Source: Chloracidobacterium validum (lineage in GTDB: Bacteria > Acidobacteriota > Blastocatellia > Chloracidobacteriales > Chloracidobacteriaceae). From it: DNA of 64,000 nucleotides. Where the stretch lies: positions 665,501 through 729,500 of the forward strand of contig NZ_CP072648.1 of the NCBI RefSeq assembly GCF_018304825.1, in the 5' to 3' direction. Positions 41,167 to 48,991 of the stretch are shown here, one piece after another (the first letter of the stretch is position 1; each line of letters starts with the position of its first letter). A program made the position numbers and the translations under genes. Under the pieces are notes generated by a model. That model was not told where the DNA came from and did no database searches. It was given only the letters and a program-made list of their open reading frames with translations.

Positions 41167-42156
41167 TCAGCTATCTTTCTGCCCACTTGCCTTGAGACGT
41201 TCGGCCAGATAGGCCTGAATTTCATCCAGTGGCAGGTCCTTCAACACCTTGAGCCGTTCCTCGACGGGCAGTCCCTTGAGCCGTTCCTCGACGGGCAGCC
41301 CCTTGAGGCGTTCCTCGACGGGCAGCCCCTTGAGGCGTTCCTCGACGGGCAGTCCCTTGAGCCGTTCCTCGACAGGCAGCCCCTTGAGCCGTTCCTCGAC
41401 GGGCAGTCCCTTGAGCCGTTCCTCGGCCGGAATATCTTCCAACAATCCTTCGTCCAGAATGCCTTTCAAAAGCAAATGTCGTGGGAGCTTCCGAATAAAC
41501 TCCGGCATCGTTTCCTCTACGAAGTCTTCAATGGTGTATGGCATCGCCAAGCCCTCCAGTCGGTAGTAAGCAAACAACCGGTCAAGAACCGAACTTGTAT
41601 CTGCGCGTTTCGGCTGAAAATTCCACGCCGCCTGGCGCACCTTGGCCTCAACGCCGCTAAATATCCCCCACAGCCGATTGGCGGGTGTGTCCCGAATCTC
41701 ACTCAGCACGATGACCCGCATCCCCAACGTTCCTAAGCTGATATGGTAAACACCCGGACGGTCGGCATCAATCCGCTGGAGTTTCACTTGATGGTTGAGC
41801 TTTTCAGGAAACCGCGTGCAGATAGCGTAAAGTGACAGCGCCGCTTTAGGCAGCCATTCGCCGGTTGATGACATCTGCTTCCGGTAGTTTACCGTGTGGC
41901 CGATGAATTCCTCGATGGCATCTTCGTCGAGTGCCTCGCGTAAGGATTTATAGGTGATCAGGTTGTGGTCGGCGAGGTTGTCAAGTCCGTCGGGAAGGTC
42001 TTGCTGGATGTCACCTGGACCTTTGCGGATGACCACGACATCGAGCAATTGCTGGCGGAGTGACAGGTCTTTCTCCAGCTCAACGGTGAAGGGAAGATCA
42101 GAAAAAAAGTCCGCTAGCGCAACACCAAAGAGCCGATGCCAGTTGAGATTGCCCAT
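41167..42156 (-). CDS. Rpn-like PD-(D/E)XK family protein with nine-residue tandem repeats
   Basis: A 329-residue protein. Residues about 15-100 have the pattern of the Rpn/transposase-like PD-(D/E)XK group: FTVELEKDLSLRQQLLDVVVIRKG, then HNLITYKSLREALDEDAIEEFIGH, giving candidate acidic residues and Lys. The middle is helical. From about residue 243 the chain is six copies of EERLKGLPV and a seventh, diverged copy, encoded by a 27-base repeat. Rpn proteins promote recombination or act as nucleases in other bacteria; here activity is inference. The C-terminal repeats resemble an amphipathic helix with a Pro break in every unit. Confidence 0.65.
   Translation of the reverse strand: MGNLNWHRLFGVALADFFSDLPFTVELEKDLSLRQQLLDVVVIRKGPGDIQQDLPDGLDNLADHNLITYKSLREALDEDAIEEFIGHTVNYRKQMSSTGEWLPKAALSLYAICTRFPEKLNHQVKLQRIDADRPGVYHISLGTLGMRVIVLSEIRDTPANRLWGIFSGVEAKVRQAAWNFQPKRADTSSVLDRLFAYYRLEGLAMPYTIEDFVEETMPEFIRKLPRHLLLKGILDEGLLEDIPAEERLKGLPVEERLKGLPVEERLKGLPVEERLKGLPVEERLKGLPVEERLKGLPVEERLKVLKDLPLDEIQAYLAERLKASGQKDS
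41249..41430 (-). repeat. 27-bp coding tandem repeat, six full copies plus a partial one
   Basis: Units run 41249-41275, 41276-41302, and on in 27-base steps to 41410, then a partial copy. They differ by only a few bases each, mostly synonymous, and encode the nine-residue unit EERLKGLPV in the Rpn-like gene. High identity at the DNA level points to recent expansion. Confidence 0.95.
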
Positions 42157-43357: not shown

Positions 43358-43458
43358 CCTTGCTTCAATGGCTTCGTAACTTCCACGAGCAGACCACGGC
43401 GGGTAATGGTACTATTGCCGGTGAATCAATCTTTTGTGCGCCGGCTTTTGTCGCCTGC

Positions 43459-44412
43459 ATGGACATTTTTCACGATTGGCAAGCGCCTGGCATCCAAACG
43501 CCCTCGGTTCTGACCATGGGGGTGTTTGATGGGTTGCATCTGGGACACCAAACAATTATTCGCCGTGTGGTGGAGCGGGCGGCCGCGCTTGAATGTGCCT
43601 CAACGGTTGTTACGTTTGACCCACACCCACGCGCTGTACTCTACCCGGATGCCGCGCCACCGCTGCTTCAGACCCTGGGCCAGCGACTCGAAGCCCTCAA
43701 GATTCTGGGAGTCCGGCAAACACTCGTTCTGCATTTCGACCAGGACTTGGCAGCGCTGACGGCTGCCGAATTTGCCGAGCGCCTGCTTTTCAAGGCGCTG
43801 GGGGCGCGGGAAATCCATCTGGGTGAAAATTTTGTCTTCGGCCGAGGACGCCAGGGCAACATTGCTACCCTCCGCTGCCTTGGCGTGGACTACGGCTGCG
43901 CGGCATACGAAGTTGAGTCTGTTGTCCTGCGCGGCCGGCGCGTCAGCTCAACGCGCCTGCGTGAAGCCATTCAATCTGGCCAGATTAACTTGGCGCGGCG
44001 CATGCTCAGTCGCCCCTATGGCGTCGAAGGCGAAGTCGTTGCCGGCCGCCGTTTGGGGCGGACGCTCGATTTCCCAACGGCGAATATCGCCGTCATCAAT
44101 CGAGTGCTGCCGGCCGATGGCGTCTATGTGACCGCAACGCTCATTCGCGGAGTGTGGCGGCGTAGCGTTACCAACATTGGTGTCCGTCCAACCGTGAGTG
44201 GTGACCGGATGCGCGTGGTAGAAACCCACATTCTGGATTTCAGCGGCGAACTCTACGGCACCTCCCTCCGCACCCGCTTCCTGCACCGCCTGCGACCGGA
44301 ACAGAAGTTTGCCAGCCTGGATGACCTCCGCGCCCAAATCGGACGCGATGTCGCCCGCGCCCGCCGCTACTTCCGACATCCCGGCGTACGGCGCTCGCTG
44401 GCCGTCGAGTGA
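43459..44412 (+). CDS. ribF: bifunctional riboflavin kinase/FAD synthetase
   Basis: Converts riboflavin to FMN and FAD. From ATG 43459 (MDIFHDWQAPGIQTPSVLTMGVFDG) the protein has 317 residues. The N-terminal nucleotidyltransferase domain has GVFDGLHLGHQTII, FDPHPRAVL and VSSTRLREAIQSGQI. The C-terminal kinase domain has GRTLDFPTANI, DGVYVTATL and the NIGVRPTV and ETHILDFSGELYG segments. The frame is open upstream to 43360, but those residues are unlike the family. The stop codon sits in a short imperfect duplication. Confidence 0.96.
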   Translation: MDIFHDWQAPGIQTPSVLTMGVFDGLHLGHQTIIRRVVERAAALECASTVVTFDPHPRAVLYPDAAPPLLQTLGQRLEALKILGVRQTLVLHFDQDLAALTAAEFAERLLFKALGAREIHLGENFVFGRGRQGNIATLRCLGVDYGCAAYEVESVVLRGRRVSSTRLREAIQSGQINLARRMLSRPYGVEGEVVAGRRLGRTLDFPTANIAVINRVLPADGVYVTATLIRGVWRRSVTNIGVRPTVSGDRMRVVETHILDFSGELYGTSLRTRFLHRLRPEQKFASLDDLRAQIGRDVARARRYFRHPGVRRSLAVE

Positions 44413-44439: not shown

Positions 44440-46938
44440 CTATCGCTTCGACAGCACGAACTGGTCGAGGCGATCAACCATCCATCCGTTGCCCACACGC
44501 CGGAGCGTTATCAATCCGGTGCCAGACTGTTCTTCCTTGGTGGCCGAAACGACGGTCACGTTGACATCGAGCAGGACGCGCTGTGCGTCAAGCCGTTCCA
44601 TGCGTGTGGCTTGGGTGGTCCAGGCGTCGGGCTTGGAAACGACGATACCCAAGACGAATTTTGCCGTATCTGGCCGAATGAAGCAGGTTTCCAGTGCCTT
44701 GGACGTTCCCGCGCGAATGGCCTTGTCCATGGTCGCAAGAAACGCGCGGATGTCCTCCTCCGGTGGCCGTGACTGCCCGGCGGCTACTTCGCTGCTCAGT
44801 AGTCCACGGCGTGCCTGTTCATCGAGCGTTGGGCCAGCCTCCATGTCAAACGCTGCTTTGTAGGCCATCCGTGCTTGGTCATAGGCCTGGCGGGTCATGG
44901 CCAGTTCACCCTCGACAAGCAGCGCCACTGCCAGCGGATAGCGGGAAGGCGGGTTGGCCTGGCGAATGGCTGTGATTTCTGCCATAGCCGCCTCACCCTT
45001 GCCCTGAAAAGCCAGAATTCGAGCCAGATAGGCGCGGGCCAGAGCAAAGCCCGGTTCACGGGCAATGGCCGCGCGCAACAGGCTTTCGGCTTCGGCCTGG
45101 CGTTGGGCCTCGGTCTCATTGGTTTTCAGCCGGCGTGTCAGTGTGGCTTCTGCATCCAGAACCAACCCAAAGGCATAGCGCTGTTCGGGCCGGGCGTCGT
45201 TATCGAACTGTTTGGAGTTGCGGTCGTAGCCAAAGCGTACCTGTGGGTAAACTTTTTCCGGGTCTAGCTCCACGCTGACAATGGTTGCCGAGGTTTCAAA
45301 GGTGGCGGTGGCATAGCCTTTGGAGGGCAGATCCACGGTAGTCGTCAGTTTTTCCCCCTTGTCGGTCACGGCGACGACCGGCAGCCGGGCGTCACCCGTG
45401 CCAAGGTTGCGCAGCGCGCAGCTCCAGCCCGGGCCATCCTCGCGTTTGACAGGAACACCAATCACGAAATCCGGTTCGCTGAGTTCCTCGAACCACTGTT
45501 TGAAAAAGTTGGCGCGGCGCTCGTCTGGCGGATCGCCAACGAGGCGGCTGCGCAACATGTCGTAGGTTGCCACACCGCTGGCGTCCAGGACGATGGACTT
45601 GACGGCAGCCAGCAACGTATCGCGTCCCACGAGGCGTTCTAGGAGCCGGAAGACAAGCGCGCCTTTGGTTGGCAGGCTGGCATAGTAGTCGGGCAAGGCC
45701 GGGTGTTGCAGGGTCAGAATCGGGTCAATGCCACGCTCAAAGCCTTGCTGTGAAACCCGAATGCCCGCCAACCTTCCATGGGCGAAGCTCCGCCGTAACC
45801 AGAAATCGCGCTCGGCAGCGGCTCCGTATTGCTGTTGAAGGTACTGTGCTGTGAGGTAGGCTGGCAGGGCATCGGCCAGCACGCCCCACCCACGCCCCCG
45901 CAGGCGGGTCTGTCCACCGAGCCAAGTCTGCGCAACATTAGCCGTCAGCCATTCGACAGTTTCAGCATCCAGTGTCGGACGTCGCAGGGTTGCCGCTTCG
46001 AGCACCACCACGCCTGGCGCGCTATAGCGTATGGCGCGGTCGGTATCGAAGTCCCGCCCCCGTAGCTCCGGGCTGCGGCGGTCGGCAACGACCCGCCGGG
46101 GAGTGGTCAACACCTGGAACTCACGCACCGGAACGGCTCCCCAGAGTGACTGGTAAAAGCCCAGAATCCGCGCAACCTCTTCGGCGAGGCGCTGGGCTTG
46201 TCGGGAACTTTCTTCCGGGAGTCCCCGCGTGCCATGGACGTTGACAACTGTTGGCTCACCACTGGCCGGCGTGAAGCGGCGCGTGACCGGTGGCGCCAAG
46301 GGCTGTACGAGTAGCCACGGTTCGCCGGCCAGTGATGAGGTGAAACTGATACTCCCGCCGGCTTCCTGTCGCGTGCCACTGGACCAGACTTCGCCATCGG
46401 TCGGCTTCGTAACGGTCAAGACGTATGGGGCGGTGTCGGGTCCATGGCTACTTTGGGGCAGATGGATGAAGGGCGTCCACCCGGCTTCCGGCAAAAGCAG
46501 GCTGTCGCCGGGCGTAAGGGCAGCGTAGTTGGTGCTTTCCCGGTACGTCAGTGTGTACACCAGTTTGGCCGTGACGTTTTTGCCCGGCCCAAGTGGTGGG
46601 GAGAGTTCCGCCACGTACGTGGCAATCGCGGTGTCACCCCCTGGTTGTTTCTTCTCATCCGTCGGCATGGGGCGGTCATTGACTGTAAAGGAGGTCACTT
46701 GGGCCGCTTTGGTGAGCCGCAAGGTGAGCGTCCGTGCTTCGGCTTGCTTGGCGATGTTGGTAAGTTCGAGGGTCGCCGTGACATCGGCGCTGTAATCCGC
46801 CGGCCGAAGCGTGACGTTGACGGTGGAACGAATGATTCCAAAGTCGGCGAACTCCTGAGCCTGGGCCACGCCAGTCGCCAGCCACAACCAGAACAGTCCG
46901 CCAAGCCAGTGCCAGGTAAAGCCTTGAAGTCGTTTCAT
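44440..46938 (-). CDS. M1-aminopeptidase-like protein lacking the zinc site, with C-terminal TPR
   Basis: An 832-residue exported protein (signal peptide ending ATGVAQA). Residues about 35-215 resemble the M1 N-terminal beta domain, and 245-480 the catalytic domain. The zinc motif is gone: where M1 enzymes have HELAHQW this has ANVAQTW (333-339), and the third ligand Glu in the NEGFA block is replaced by Asp (ADALPAY, 355-361). No HExxH occurs elsewhere. Residues about 600-720 are TPR-like (ESLLRAAIAREPGFALARAYLARILAFQGKGEAAMAEI), followed by a small alpha/beta domain at the end. It may be a binding or scaffold protein rather than a peptidase. Confidence 0.8.
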   Translation of the reverse strand: MKRLQGFTWHWLGGLFWLWLATGVAQAQEFADFGIIRSTVNVTLRPADYSADVTATLELTNIAKQAEARTLTLRLTKAAQVTSFTVNDRPMPTDEKKQPGGDTAIATYVAELSPPLGPGKNVTAKLVYTLTYRESTNYAALTPGDSLLLPEAGWTPFIHLPQSSHGPDTAPYVLTVTKPTDGEVWSSGTRQEAGGSISFTSSLAGEPWLLVQPLAPPVTRRFTPASGEPTVVNVHGTRGLPEESSRQAQRLAEEVARILGFYQSLWGAVPVREFQVLTTPRRVVADRRSPELRGRDFDTDRAIRYSAPGVVVLEAATLRRPTLDAETVEWLTANVAQTWLGGQTRLRGRGWGVLADALPAYLTAQYLQQQYGAAAERDFWLRRSFAHGRLAGIRVSQQGFERGIDPILTLQHPALPDYYASLPTKGALVFRLLERLVGRDTLLAAVKSIVLDASGVATYDMLRSRLVGDPPDERRANFFKQWFEELSEPDFVIGVPVKREDGPGWSCALRNLGTGDARLPVVAVTDKGEKLTTTVDLPSKGYATATFETSATIVSVELDPEKVYPQVRFGYDRNSKQFDNDARPEQRYAFGLVLDAEATLTRRLKTNETEAQRQAEAESLLRAAIAREPGFALARAYLARILAFQGKGEAAMAEITAIRQANPPSRYPLAVALLVEGELAMTRQAYDQARMAYKAAFDMEAGPTLDEQARRGLLSSEVAAGQSRPPEEDIRAFLATMDKAIRAGTSKALETCFIRPDTAKFVLGIVVSKPDAWTTQATRMERLDAQRVLLDVNVTVVSATKEEQSGTGLITLRRVGNGWMVDRLDQFVLSKR

Positions 46939-47135
46939 CAGAGATTGAACTTAGGTGATTTAGCAGGTAGAAGATTTGGTCGCCGTGCGACACAGTGGCT
47001 AGACGCCGTTAGGCAAACCTACTATGGTTGCCTGCGTTTCTCCCACCTTTTCTTGCGCTGAATGACTGACCTGATGCCAGTCCCCGGTAGTGCAATGAGG
47101 TGGTTTTCCCGCAAGTTTTCCTGGGGTTTGCCGCC

Positions 47136-47984
47136 ATGGCTTGGTTTAGACGTAAACGCAACATCACCGATGAAACACCACCGGCTGACCGCAAGGTTCG
47201 GACTGAAGGTCTTTTTGTCAAGTGCCCGGCCTGTGGCACGACGCACTTCAAAAAAGACCTTGAAGCCAACCTAAACGTCTGCCCAAACTGCGGCCACCAC
47301 ATGAAGTGGCCGACGCGACAGCGCCTGGCCCATCTTTTTGATGATGGGCAATACACAACCTTTGACGACAACATTGTTTCGACCGACATTCTGGAGTTTT
47401 TTGATACCAAGTCCTACGCCGACCGGATTGTTCAAGCGCGGAAGAGCACGGGTTTCAACGATGCGATTGTCTGCGCTGAAGGAAATCTCGGAGGACGACC
47501 CCTGATTGGCTGCGTCATGGTGATGGAGTTCATCGGTGGGAGCATGGGGTCAGTGGTTGGCGAAAAAGTCACCCGCGCCATTGAGCGGGCAATTGCTAAA
47601 CAGCGACCGCTCGTCATCGTTTCCGCTTCCGGCGGCGCGCGCATGATGGAAGGCACGTATAGCCTGATGCAACTTGCTAAAATCTGCGGCGCGTTAGCCC
47701 GTTTGGATGCTGCCCGCGTGCCTTATATTTCCGTACTGACCGATCCAACGACGGGTGGCGTCACGGCCAGTTTTGCCATGCTTGGCGACATCAATATCGC
47801 CGAACCGGGTGCGCTCATCGGTTTTGCCGGACCGCGCGTCATCGAGCAAACCATCCGCCAGAAGCTTCCCGTCGGATTTCAACGTTCGGAGTTTCTTCTG
47901 GAGCACGGCATGCTTGACGCCGTCGTGGACCGCCGCGACCTGCGGAAGTTCCTCATCGATGCACTGGCTTTCATGGCGCACTGA
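47136..47984 (+). CDS. accD: acetyl-CoA carboxylase carboxyltransferase subunit beta
   Basis: Transfers the carboxyl group from biotin to acetyl-CoA as a partner of AccA, the first committed step of fatty-acid synthesis. From ATG 47136 (MAWFRRKRNITDETPP) it has 282 residues. The N-terminal zinc ribbon has Cys30, Cys33, Cys49 and Cys52. The crotonase-like core shows GGSMGSVVGEKVTRAIE, VSASGGARMMEGTYSLMQLAK, PYISVLTDPTTGGVTASFAMLGDI and AGPRVIEQTI. accA, accB and accC are not near. Confidence 0.97.
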   Translation: MAWFRRKRNITDETPPADRKVRTEGLFVKCPACGTTHFKKDLEANLNVCPNCGHHMKWPTRQRLAHLFDDGQYTTFDDNIVSTDILEFFDTKSYADRIVQARKSTGFNDAIVCAEGNLGGRPLIGCVMVMEFIGGSMGSVVGEKVTRAIERAIAKQRPLVIVSASGGARMMEGTYSLMQLAKICGALARLDAARVPYISVLTDPTTGGVTASFAMLGDINIAEPGALIGFAGPRVIEQTIRQKLPVGFQRSEFLLEHGMLDAVVDRRDLRKFLIDALAFMAH

Positions 47985-48058
47985 TTCAACCAAGCTGCCG
48001 CGTCACAATGCTGACAAGGCCCGGTCTTCAAGGCAAAATCTCATTGGGAGAGTTTGGA

Positions 48059-48991
48059 ATGCTGTCTTGTTTCTCAAGTCAACGGTTGACGCTCGTCCTG
48101 GTCGGTTTGGCGCTTGCCACAACGAGTTTCTTCGTCCGGCCGGTGCCGGGCGTTGTTATTTTGGATAGTGCCTGGCGTAAACACGGGGGCAACGCCGACA
48201 ACAAGCCGGCCGGCTTCGCCAAGCATATTGCGCTCGCTAATCAACCGCAGTTTCGCGCAACCATCCAACTGGTTGGTGAAAGTGCTGGCGCGTCTGGAAC
48301 CTGGATTGGTAACGACGCCAAACATGGTTACGTCCTGACGGCGGGCCACAACTTCACCAAGGGTGGCAATGCCACTGAGTATGCGTACGTTGCTACGGAT
48401 GGCACGACCTACAAGGGGGTTGAGCTTATCGTTCATCCGGCGTGGAATGGCGACAACAACACCCGCACGGGCTATGACTTTGCCATTGTCGTCTTAGATC
48501 GCCCAGTCAGAGGTGTTGGGCAACCGGCGCTGCTTTACGCTGGCTCAGATGAGATGGATCGGCTTTGTACCATTGTCGGTTATGGCATGCGCGGTACTGG
48601 TTCCTCAGGCGAACAGGCCGACTACTACGACGACGACAACCCCAAAGCTGCTGCGCAGAACCTGATTGAAAATGTAACTGAAGCGGTCAAACCGCTGCCC
48701 AGCGATGAAGACGGCGGCAACTACCTTGGGATAGACTTCGATAAAGAAGACGGAAGCGCCAAGAACACCTACGGCGACCCGACGCCGGTGAATGAGTATG
48801 AGGGCGCGTTGGGTTCAGGCGATAGCGGTGGTTCCTGCTGGATGGAGTACGATAGGCAGTGGTGCGTTATCGGCGTCAATGCCAATGGTGACACTTCGAC
48901 ATACGGCGCAGTGTCGTATTTTGCTCGTGTCTCCGGAGAGGTAGCGTGGATCAAGTCGGTCTTTCCGGGCGCAAAGTTTATTGGTAACTAA
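48059..48991 (+). CDS. exported trypsin-like serine protease
   Basis: From ATG 48059 (MLSCFSSQRLTLVLVGLALATT) the protein has 310 residues, beginning with a signal peptide. The chymotrypsin-fold triad is intact: His97 in LTAGHNF, Asp140 in GYDFAIVVLD and Ser256 in LGSGDSGGSCW. Between Asp and Ser lies an Asp/Glu-rich stretch (DYYDDDNPKAAAQ...FDKEDGSAKN) that may bind calcium. Most likely secreted. An upstream ATG at 48008 is less likely as it precedes the signal peptide by 17 residues. Confidence 0.9.
   Translation: MLSCFSSQRLTLVLVGLALATTSFFVRPVPGVVILDSAWRKHGGNADNKPAGFAKHIALANQPQFRATIQLVGESAGASGTWIGNDAKHGYVLTAGHNFTKGGNATEYAYVATDGTTYKGVELIVHPAWNGDNNTRTGYDFAIVVLDRPVRGVGQPALLYAGSDEMDRLCTIVGYGMRGTGSSGEQADYYDDDNPKAAAQNLIENVTEAVKPLPSDEDGGNYLGIDFDKEDGSAKNTYGDPTPVNEYEGALGSGDSGGSCWMEYDRQWCVIGVNANGDTSTYGAVSYFARVSGEVAWIKSVFPGAKFIGN

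Follow-up and report, generated by a model that had tools for sequence, protein, structure and literature searches.

A secreted M1-fold pseudopeptidase conserved in Blastocatellia and its probable link to lipopolysaccharide genes

Introduction

What use does a bacterium have for an aminopeptidase that has lost its catalytic center? The question is raised by an open reading frame in the window, i.e., the whole stretch of 64,000 nucleotides that was analyzed. The frame occupies positions 44440-46938 of the minus strand, starts with ATG and encodes 832 amino acids without interruption. An earlier note, based on reading the sequence by eye, had described its product as an M1 peptidase relative devoid of zinc ligands and reused as a binding or assembly protein in the periplasm. 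The window genome is 3.66 Mb long in two contigs, and its named relatives with 78-79% protein identity are members of Chloracidobacterium (Acidobacteriota, class Blastocatellia).

Pseudo-M1 proteins as such are already known. TAF2 of TFIID, which is eukaryotic and nuclear, uses a non-catalytic M1 fold as a scaffold; the non-catalytic fold is what it shares with the window protein, a likeness that does not imply orthology. A second case is the yeast M1 homologue Tma108, which binds nascent chains and was proposed to bind proteins, perhaps non-enzymatically (PMC11266112); it is the sole M1 pseudopeptidase described in section 4 of that review. We did not find a report of a bacterial one tied to genes of lipopolysaccharide (LPS) synthesis: in the open-license PMC literature we recognized no account of an acidobacterial pseudo-M1 protein encoded next to kdsA or lpxB, and the word "peptidase" is absent from the main text of an article on the evolution of Kdo2-lipid A (PMC3087551). 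What is new here is the adjacency of the window protein's family, called family A, to kdsA and kdsC, and that of a sister family, B, to lpxB.

Results

An M1 fold followed by TPR and NTF2-like domains

The gene, its parts and its immediate neighbors are as follows.

44440..46938, minus strand: entire gene for the secreted M1-fold pseudopeptidase of 832 aa, including its TPR and NTF2-like domains (from the ORF, the fold and its presence in 58/58 genomes)
46855..46938, minus strand: signal peptide, residues about 1-28 (from the sequence and the signal-peptide rule applied to the family)
46219..46851, minus strand: M1 N-terminal beta domain, residues 30-240 (DSSP of the model; the VIA-align range starts at residue 30)
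45484..46218, minus strand: catalytic-like helical domain, residues 241-485 (model, VIA-align, profile alignment)
46036..46089, minus strand: low-confidence loop, residues 284-301 (pLDDT under 50; alignment gap)
45928..45942, minus strand: former HExxH, residues 333-337, ANVAQ (sequence and profile alignments)
45871..45873, minus strand: former third zinc ligand, Asp356, Glu in active M1 (alignments)
45670..45672, minus strand: former catalytic Tyr, Pro423 (alignments)
45259..45477, minus strand: beta-sandwich domain, residues 488-560 (DSSP of the model)
44779..45174, minus strand: helical TPR region, residues 589-720 (Pfam, model, family matches)
44443..44775, minus strand: NTF2-like C-terminal domain, residues 722-832 (separate model with pLDDT 93.9; VIA-align Z 12.8)
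47100..47984, plus strand: neighbor accD, divergent; the Chloracidobacterium context, not a Kdo operon
43360..44412, plus strand: neighbor ribF, convergent with the pseudo-M1 gene

The window protein was modeled with AlphaFold2 from 46 aligned sequences (pLDDT 89.4, pTM 0.89). M1 aminopeptidases were the best among the Foldseek matches listed for this model (top E value 1.2e-25). With VIA-align, the best superposition was on ERAP1 (6mgq; Z 24.0 over 515 residues at 4.7 A), and E. coli aminopeptidase N gave a Z of 22.5. A profile of the family aligned with a profile of seven HExxH-bearing M1 proteins of the same phylum over 485 columns (P 100, E value 8e-44). The identification as M1 rests on these fold and profile comparisons because a PDB search with the single protein yielded TPR and ClpP matches at chance level and nothing credible. 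A Pfam search of the window protein itself gave no M1 match, and Peptidase_M1 was found individually, at an E value of 0.01 or better, in 16/46 members of family A. Descent of the window protein from M1 is thereby established independently of the reading by eye, whose statement that the surrounding fold is kept proved correct.

The protein shares its fold and its domain order up to the beta-sandwich with peptidase family M1 (PF01433; aminopeptidase N, ERAP1 and LTA4 hydrolase), from which it differs by its extra C-terminal TPR and NTF2-like domains. The loop of residues 284-301 is missing from the alignment in many other families of Blastocatellia. Searches of Pfam and NCBIfam with the window protein returned TPR alone above doubt (TPR_19, residues 611-668, E value 1.5e-5). 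The TPR repeats that were said to have been added are thus real, but they are no novelty of this gene, as the M1-TPR layout is shared with the sister family. The C-terminal domain had been overlooked. Modeled alone, residues 722-832 gave a pLDDT of 93.9 and matched the NTF2-like fold, a curved beta-sheet with helices, over the whole domain (VIA-align Z 12.8, 105/111 residues at 2.4 A), as expected of a member of the NTF2-like superfamily; the best Foldseek E value against NTF2-like proteins was 2e-4.

A crude signal-peptide rule combining a hydrophobic core and AxA was passed by 51/55 rows of family A. The N-terminus of the window protein falls just below the threshold of that rule, yet it looks signal-like by eye. 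The signal peptide places the protein outside the cytoplasm, which fits the periplasmic location proposed for it.

The catalytic center is lost throughout family A

The HELAHQW of an active M1 protein encoded in the window genome (L001) corresponds to ANVAQTW, residues 333-339, in the window protein, and in the profile alignment with the seven ligand-bearing M1 rows the two motifs fall in the same columns. There is no intact HExxH on the M1 core. The third ligand, Glu in active enzymes, is Asp356; the Glu of GxMEN is also absent, and Pro423 stands in the column of the catalytic Tyr, which is kept in 9/56 family members. Thus, the fold and homology of an M1 enzyme are present, and HExxH with the Glu of the third ligand, GxMEN and the catalytic Tyr are all missing, more than the loss of the zinc ligands that had first been noticed.

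None of the 56 aligned members of family A has HExxH at the site. This alignment leaves out two contig-end fragments (G029 and G047), includes one row without its N-terminus (G008), and was used in subsets of 46 (A1) and 44 (A3) rows. The second His column holds Arg in 38 members, Lys in 11, Gln in six and Glu in one, and the column of the third ligand is occupied by Asp (36 members), Glu (14), Gln (five) or Gly (one). A basic residue in the former is combined with an acidic residue in the latter in 44/56 members, and the window protein represents the rarer Gln-Asp form. The natural reading, with proximity taken from the fold, is that a basic-acidic ion pair would replace the zinc ion. Trp339 is kept in 51/56 members; apart from it, Arg/Lys337 and Asp/Glu356, the metal-site columns are variable. 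Conservation along the former HExxH helix is close to that of the domain as a whole (2.40 versus 2.24 bits).

The gene is maintained by selection across the class

The gene was present in all 58 genomes searched, namely the window genome and relatives in and around its family and class. In a draw of 247 Acidobacteriota genomes, the 26 genomes of the same class all gave matches of 725 bits or more, and the best match beyond Blastocatellia reached 166.7 bits, for a protein with an intact HELSH. That top-scoring out-of-class relative (L104:405-2789) is an M1 protein whose C-terminal domain resembles that of family A by eye and which has no TPR.

Pairwise dN/dS values over the whole gene were 0.06-0.12 between the window gene and five orthologues of the genus, with dS near saturation. 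Such values indicate that the gene is under strong purifying selection. The protein therefore combines a homologous fold, lost catalytic residues and a gene kept by selection, as a non-peptidase M1 homologue does, and it is almost certainly a pseudoenzyme, as first supposed. The ligand-less form is shared by the relatives and is not a single degenerate copy. Decay of the gene or a misread frame, in whose favor nothing was found, has a negligible probability and is ruled out by full-length frames, low dN/dS and class-wide presence; simple decay had already been argued against from the uninterrupted frame.

Two further features of the window were seen in passing. A 27-base tandem unit is repeated 6.6 times with 94% matches at 41247-41425, within an ORF on the minus strand (41167-42156), where it encodes repeated EERLKGLPV. 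At 48008-48991, a secreted-looking protein with GDSGG resembles, from its sequence, a trypsin-type serine protease, and a relative of it also lies near the pseudo-M1 gene in locus L035.

Family A lies beside Kdo genes in most of the class

The gene for KDO-8-phosphate synthase, kdsA (NCBIfam TIGR01362), scored over the cut-off in 55/58 genomes. In 41/58 genomes and 7/9 taxonomic families, the pseudo-M1 gene follows it in the same orientation, with 38-1014 nt between the matches. The 17 genomes without this linkage comprise 10 of the window's own family, in which the gene is unlinked, three without kdsA over the cut-off, and four in which kdsA and the pseudo-M1 gene are on different contigs. 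Neighbors were clustered in the 42 genomes with long enough loci, using a crude ORF caller that missed some of the kdsA genes counted above, and gene identities at the Kdo locus were assigned by NCBIfam on one locus. On the same strand, kdsC is next or next but one downstream in 20/42 loci, and gene ends often overlap there. The preceding genes include pyrG in 14 and kdsB in 10 of the 42 loci with enough flank. The fullest form, in L055, reads kdsB-orf-pyrG-kdsA-A-kdsC with small gaps or overlaps.

Adjacency to kdsA, kdsC or both is thus a feature of most families of the class and is absent from the window's own family, where all 10 genomes lack the kdsA linkage, which counts against a role in LPS. 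The window genome does encode kdsA, kdsB, kdsC and a waaA-type gene, at sites away from the pseudo-M1 gene. Three genomes of another family (G018, G030 and G041; loci L134, L135 and L072 of f7) keep the pseudo-M1 gene with neither kdsA nor kdsC over the cut-off, and therefore the gene does not depend on Kdo synthesis alone. All three have kdsB and two have a waaA-type gene. The pseudo-M1 gene directly follows pyrG in G018 and G030, an arrangement suggestive of the loss of an intervening kdsA, and does not do so in G041.

Other genes recur at these loci. The frame between kdsB and pyrG (L055:3008-3289), of 92-108 aa, is found in seven loci, and its L055 copy has no NCBIfam match. In L042 (8271-9443), L070, L076 and L077, a gene for a protein of 390-423 aa directly follows the pseudo-M1 gene in place of kdsC; the protein is membrane-like by eye, and the L042 copy has no NCBIfam match. 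Two genomes of the window family have a gene for an M17 leucyl aminopeptidase immediately before the pseudo-M1 gene, in the same orientation (L065:6380-7873 and L066:5314-6816), the identity of the L066 copy being based on resemblance alone.

A sister family of ligand-less M1-TPR proteins lies beside lpxB outside Blastocatellia

The window genome encodes a second ligand-less M1-TPR protein (L002), which belongs to family B. An alignment of 19 rows of this family (A5) matched family A over 599 columns including TPR (E value 3.1e-53). Like family A, family B joins M1 and TPR without zinc ligands and, outside Blastocatellia, adjoins an LPS gene; its match to A stops before the NTF2-like domain and the substitutions differ, the first His being replaced by Arg, Asn or Lys. 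Pfam recognized both Peptidase_M1 and TPR in 19/19 rows of A5, and HExxH occurs in 0/34 distinct proteins of the family.

Of 109 genomes sampled from the phylum, 33 encode full-length B (420 bits or more). The gene lies downstream of lpxB (TIGR00215) on the same strand in 21 of these 33 genomes, or 21 of the 23 outside Blastocatellia, in 10 families; the two are 17-266 nt apart in 20 of these genomes and 1494 nt apart in the other. In a loose control by eye, no matches other than B were seen within 2 kb of lpxB among the matches listed. Two observations count against a role in LPS: B adjoins lpxB in none of the 10 Blastocatellia genomes, and lpxB was matched in 104/109 genomes, many of which have no B.

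Phylogenetic trees of 18 family A, 21 family B, two other ligand-less and 10 HExxH-bearing proteins recovered A and B each as one clade (support 99.7/100 and 100/100). The free tree separates A from B and contains several long branches, and a single A+B clade is not rejected (p-AU 0.067). Both one and two losses of the zinc site are compatible with these trees. The two other ligand-less proteins (L142:1464-2360 and L143:1175-2185), M1-like and from Blastocatellia, group with neither A nor B.

Discussion

The status of the window protein as a pseudoenzyme is firm, and its link to LPS is good. The mechanism is one that we infer, as is the earlier description of a binding or assembly protein; the context of Kdo and lipid A genes makes a role in envelope assembly more likely. 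Two families of dead M1-TPR proteins beside different steps of the Kdo-lipid A pathway point to the cell envelope, and a function connected with LPS or the outer membrane is probable.

The main rival to this reading is a general periplasmic role, for instance in protein quality control or as an adaptor for a protease or transporter, the neighborhood of LPS genes being an inherited order only. Conserved gene order can indeed outlast any common function, and the unlinked gene in the window family and the three genomes that keep it without kdsA and kdsC fit such a role well. Against it stand two families that carry different substitutions and, in many taxonomic families, each adjoin LPS genes of their own (kdsA/kdsC in one case and lpxB in the other), and we regard it as rather unlikely. 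The protein might instead have gained a new catalytic activity replacing metallopeptidase chemistry, e.g., in the NTF2-like domain or directed at sugars or lipids of the envelope. SnoaL and ketosteroid-isomerase-like folds are among those similar to the C-terminal model, the NTF2-like fold hosts isomerases, dehydratases and cyclases, and in this domain Trp773 is invariant and Asp738 nearly so. However, no catalytic motif was identified, the domain has a single invariant column, and NTF2-like domains often merely bind or oligomerize, so that a new activity appears improbable.

More improbable still is a decoy or inhibitor, in which the dead M1 fold would bind peptides and shield them from, or regulate, active periplasmic M1 aminopeptidases. 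HExxH-bearing M1 proteins are encoded in the same genome (L001, L003 and L004), and the regulation of active cousins is a known role of pseudopeptidases (PMC11266112). Against this, there is no consistent linkage to active peptidases, the leucyl aminopeptidase gene being adjacent in two genomes only, and the metal site varies outside the three columns named above.

We therefore return to LPS and the outer membrane. Kds enzymes are cytoplasmic. With operon enzymes in the cytoplasm and the window protein outside it, the link would be to their product, LPS, or to its export or assembly, rather than a direct partnership. The reading that we favor, with some confidence, is that of a periplasmic pseudopeptidase that acts as a binding factor in the export of LPS or the assembly of the outer membrane, perhaps as BepA does. 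In place of the zinc ion, an ion pair of a basic and an acidic residue would hold the fold closed, and the former substrate groove, the TPR and the NTF2-like domain would bind proteins or lipid. LPS (Kdo-lipid A) might thus be helped to reach, or to assemble in, the outer membrane, perhaps through a chaperone-like action on a component of the Lpt or beta-barrel machinery in the manner of BepA minus its proteolysis. In Chloracidobacterium, the gene is unlinked from the Kdo genes, with a Kdo pathway still encoded.

BepA, an M48-TPR protein of the E. coli periplasm, acts in a chaperone-like fashion to promote maturation of the LPS translocon LptD, and its protease-dead form retains part of this activity, according to PMC8423444. 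Like BepA as described there, the window protein combines a metallopeptidase-type domain with TPR and, by its signal peptide, is periplasmic. BepA, however, belongs to M48 and has an active site, whereas the window protein has an M1 fold with a dead site and is tied to LPS by gene context only; the BepA-type HExxH zinc site is absent from its family, and the structural matches listed are M1. It also stands apart from Tma108, which retains all active-site residues but one (PMC11266112): the window protein retains none of them and carries a signal peptide. On the BepA precedent, a chaperone-like or scaffold role is, with modest probability, the mechanism that we rank first, and by analogy a chaperone-like assembly factor is a tentative proposal.

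More broadly, and still doubtfully, Acidobacteriota may have dead M1-TPR aminopeptidases dedicated to LPS assembly in the periplasm. The two families, which would go back to one or two recruitments, would then have taken over a step, as chaperone or scaffold, that lies between the synthesis of Kdo-lipid A and the outer membrane, with an Arg/Lys-Asp/Glu pair replacing zinc in one of the families. If this is true, a family found across a bacterial class and its sister family across the phylum would be a concrete candidate for LPS assembly in Acidobacteriota, and the site would be a clean case of a metal center replaced by an ion pair. It poses the question of what a dead aminopeptidase does in an LPS operon.
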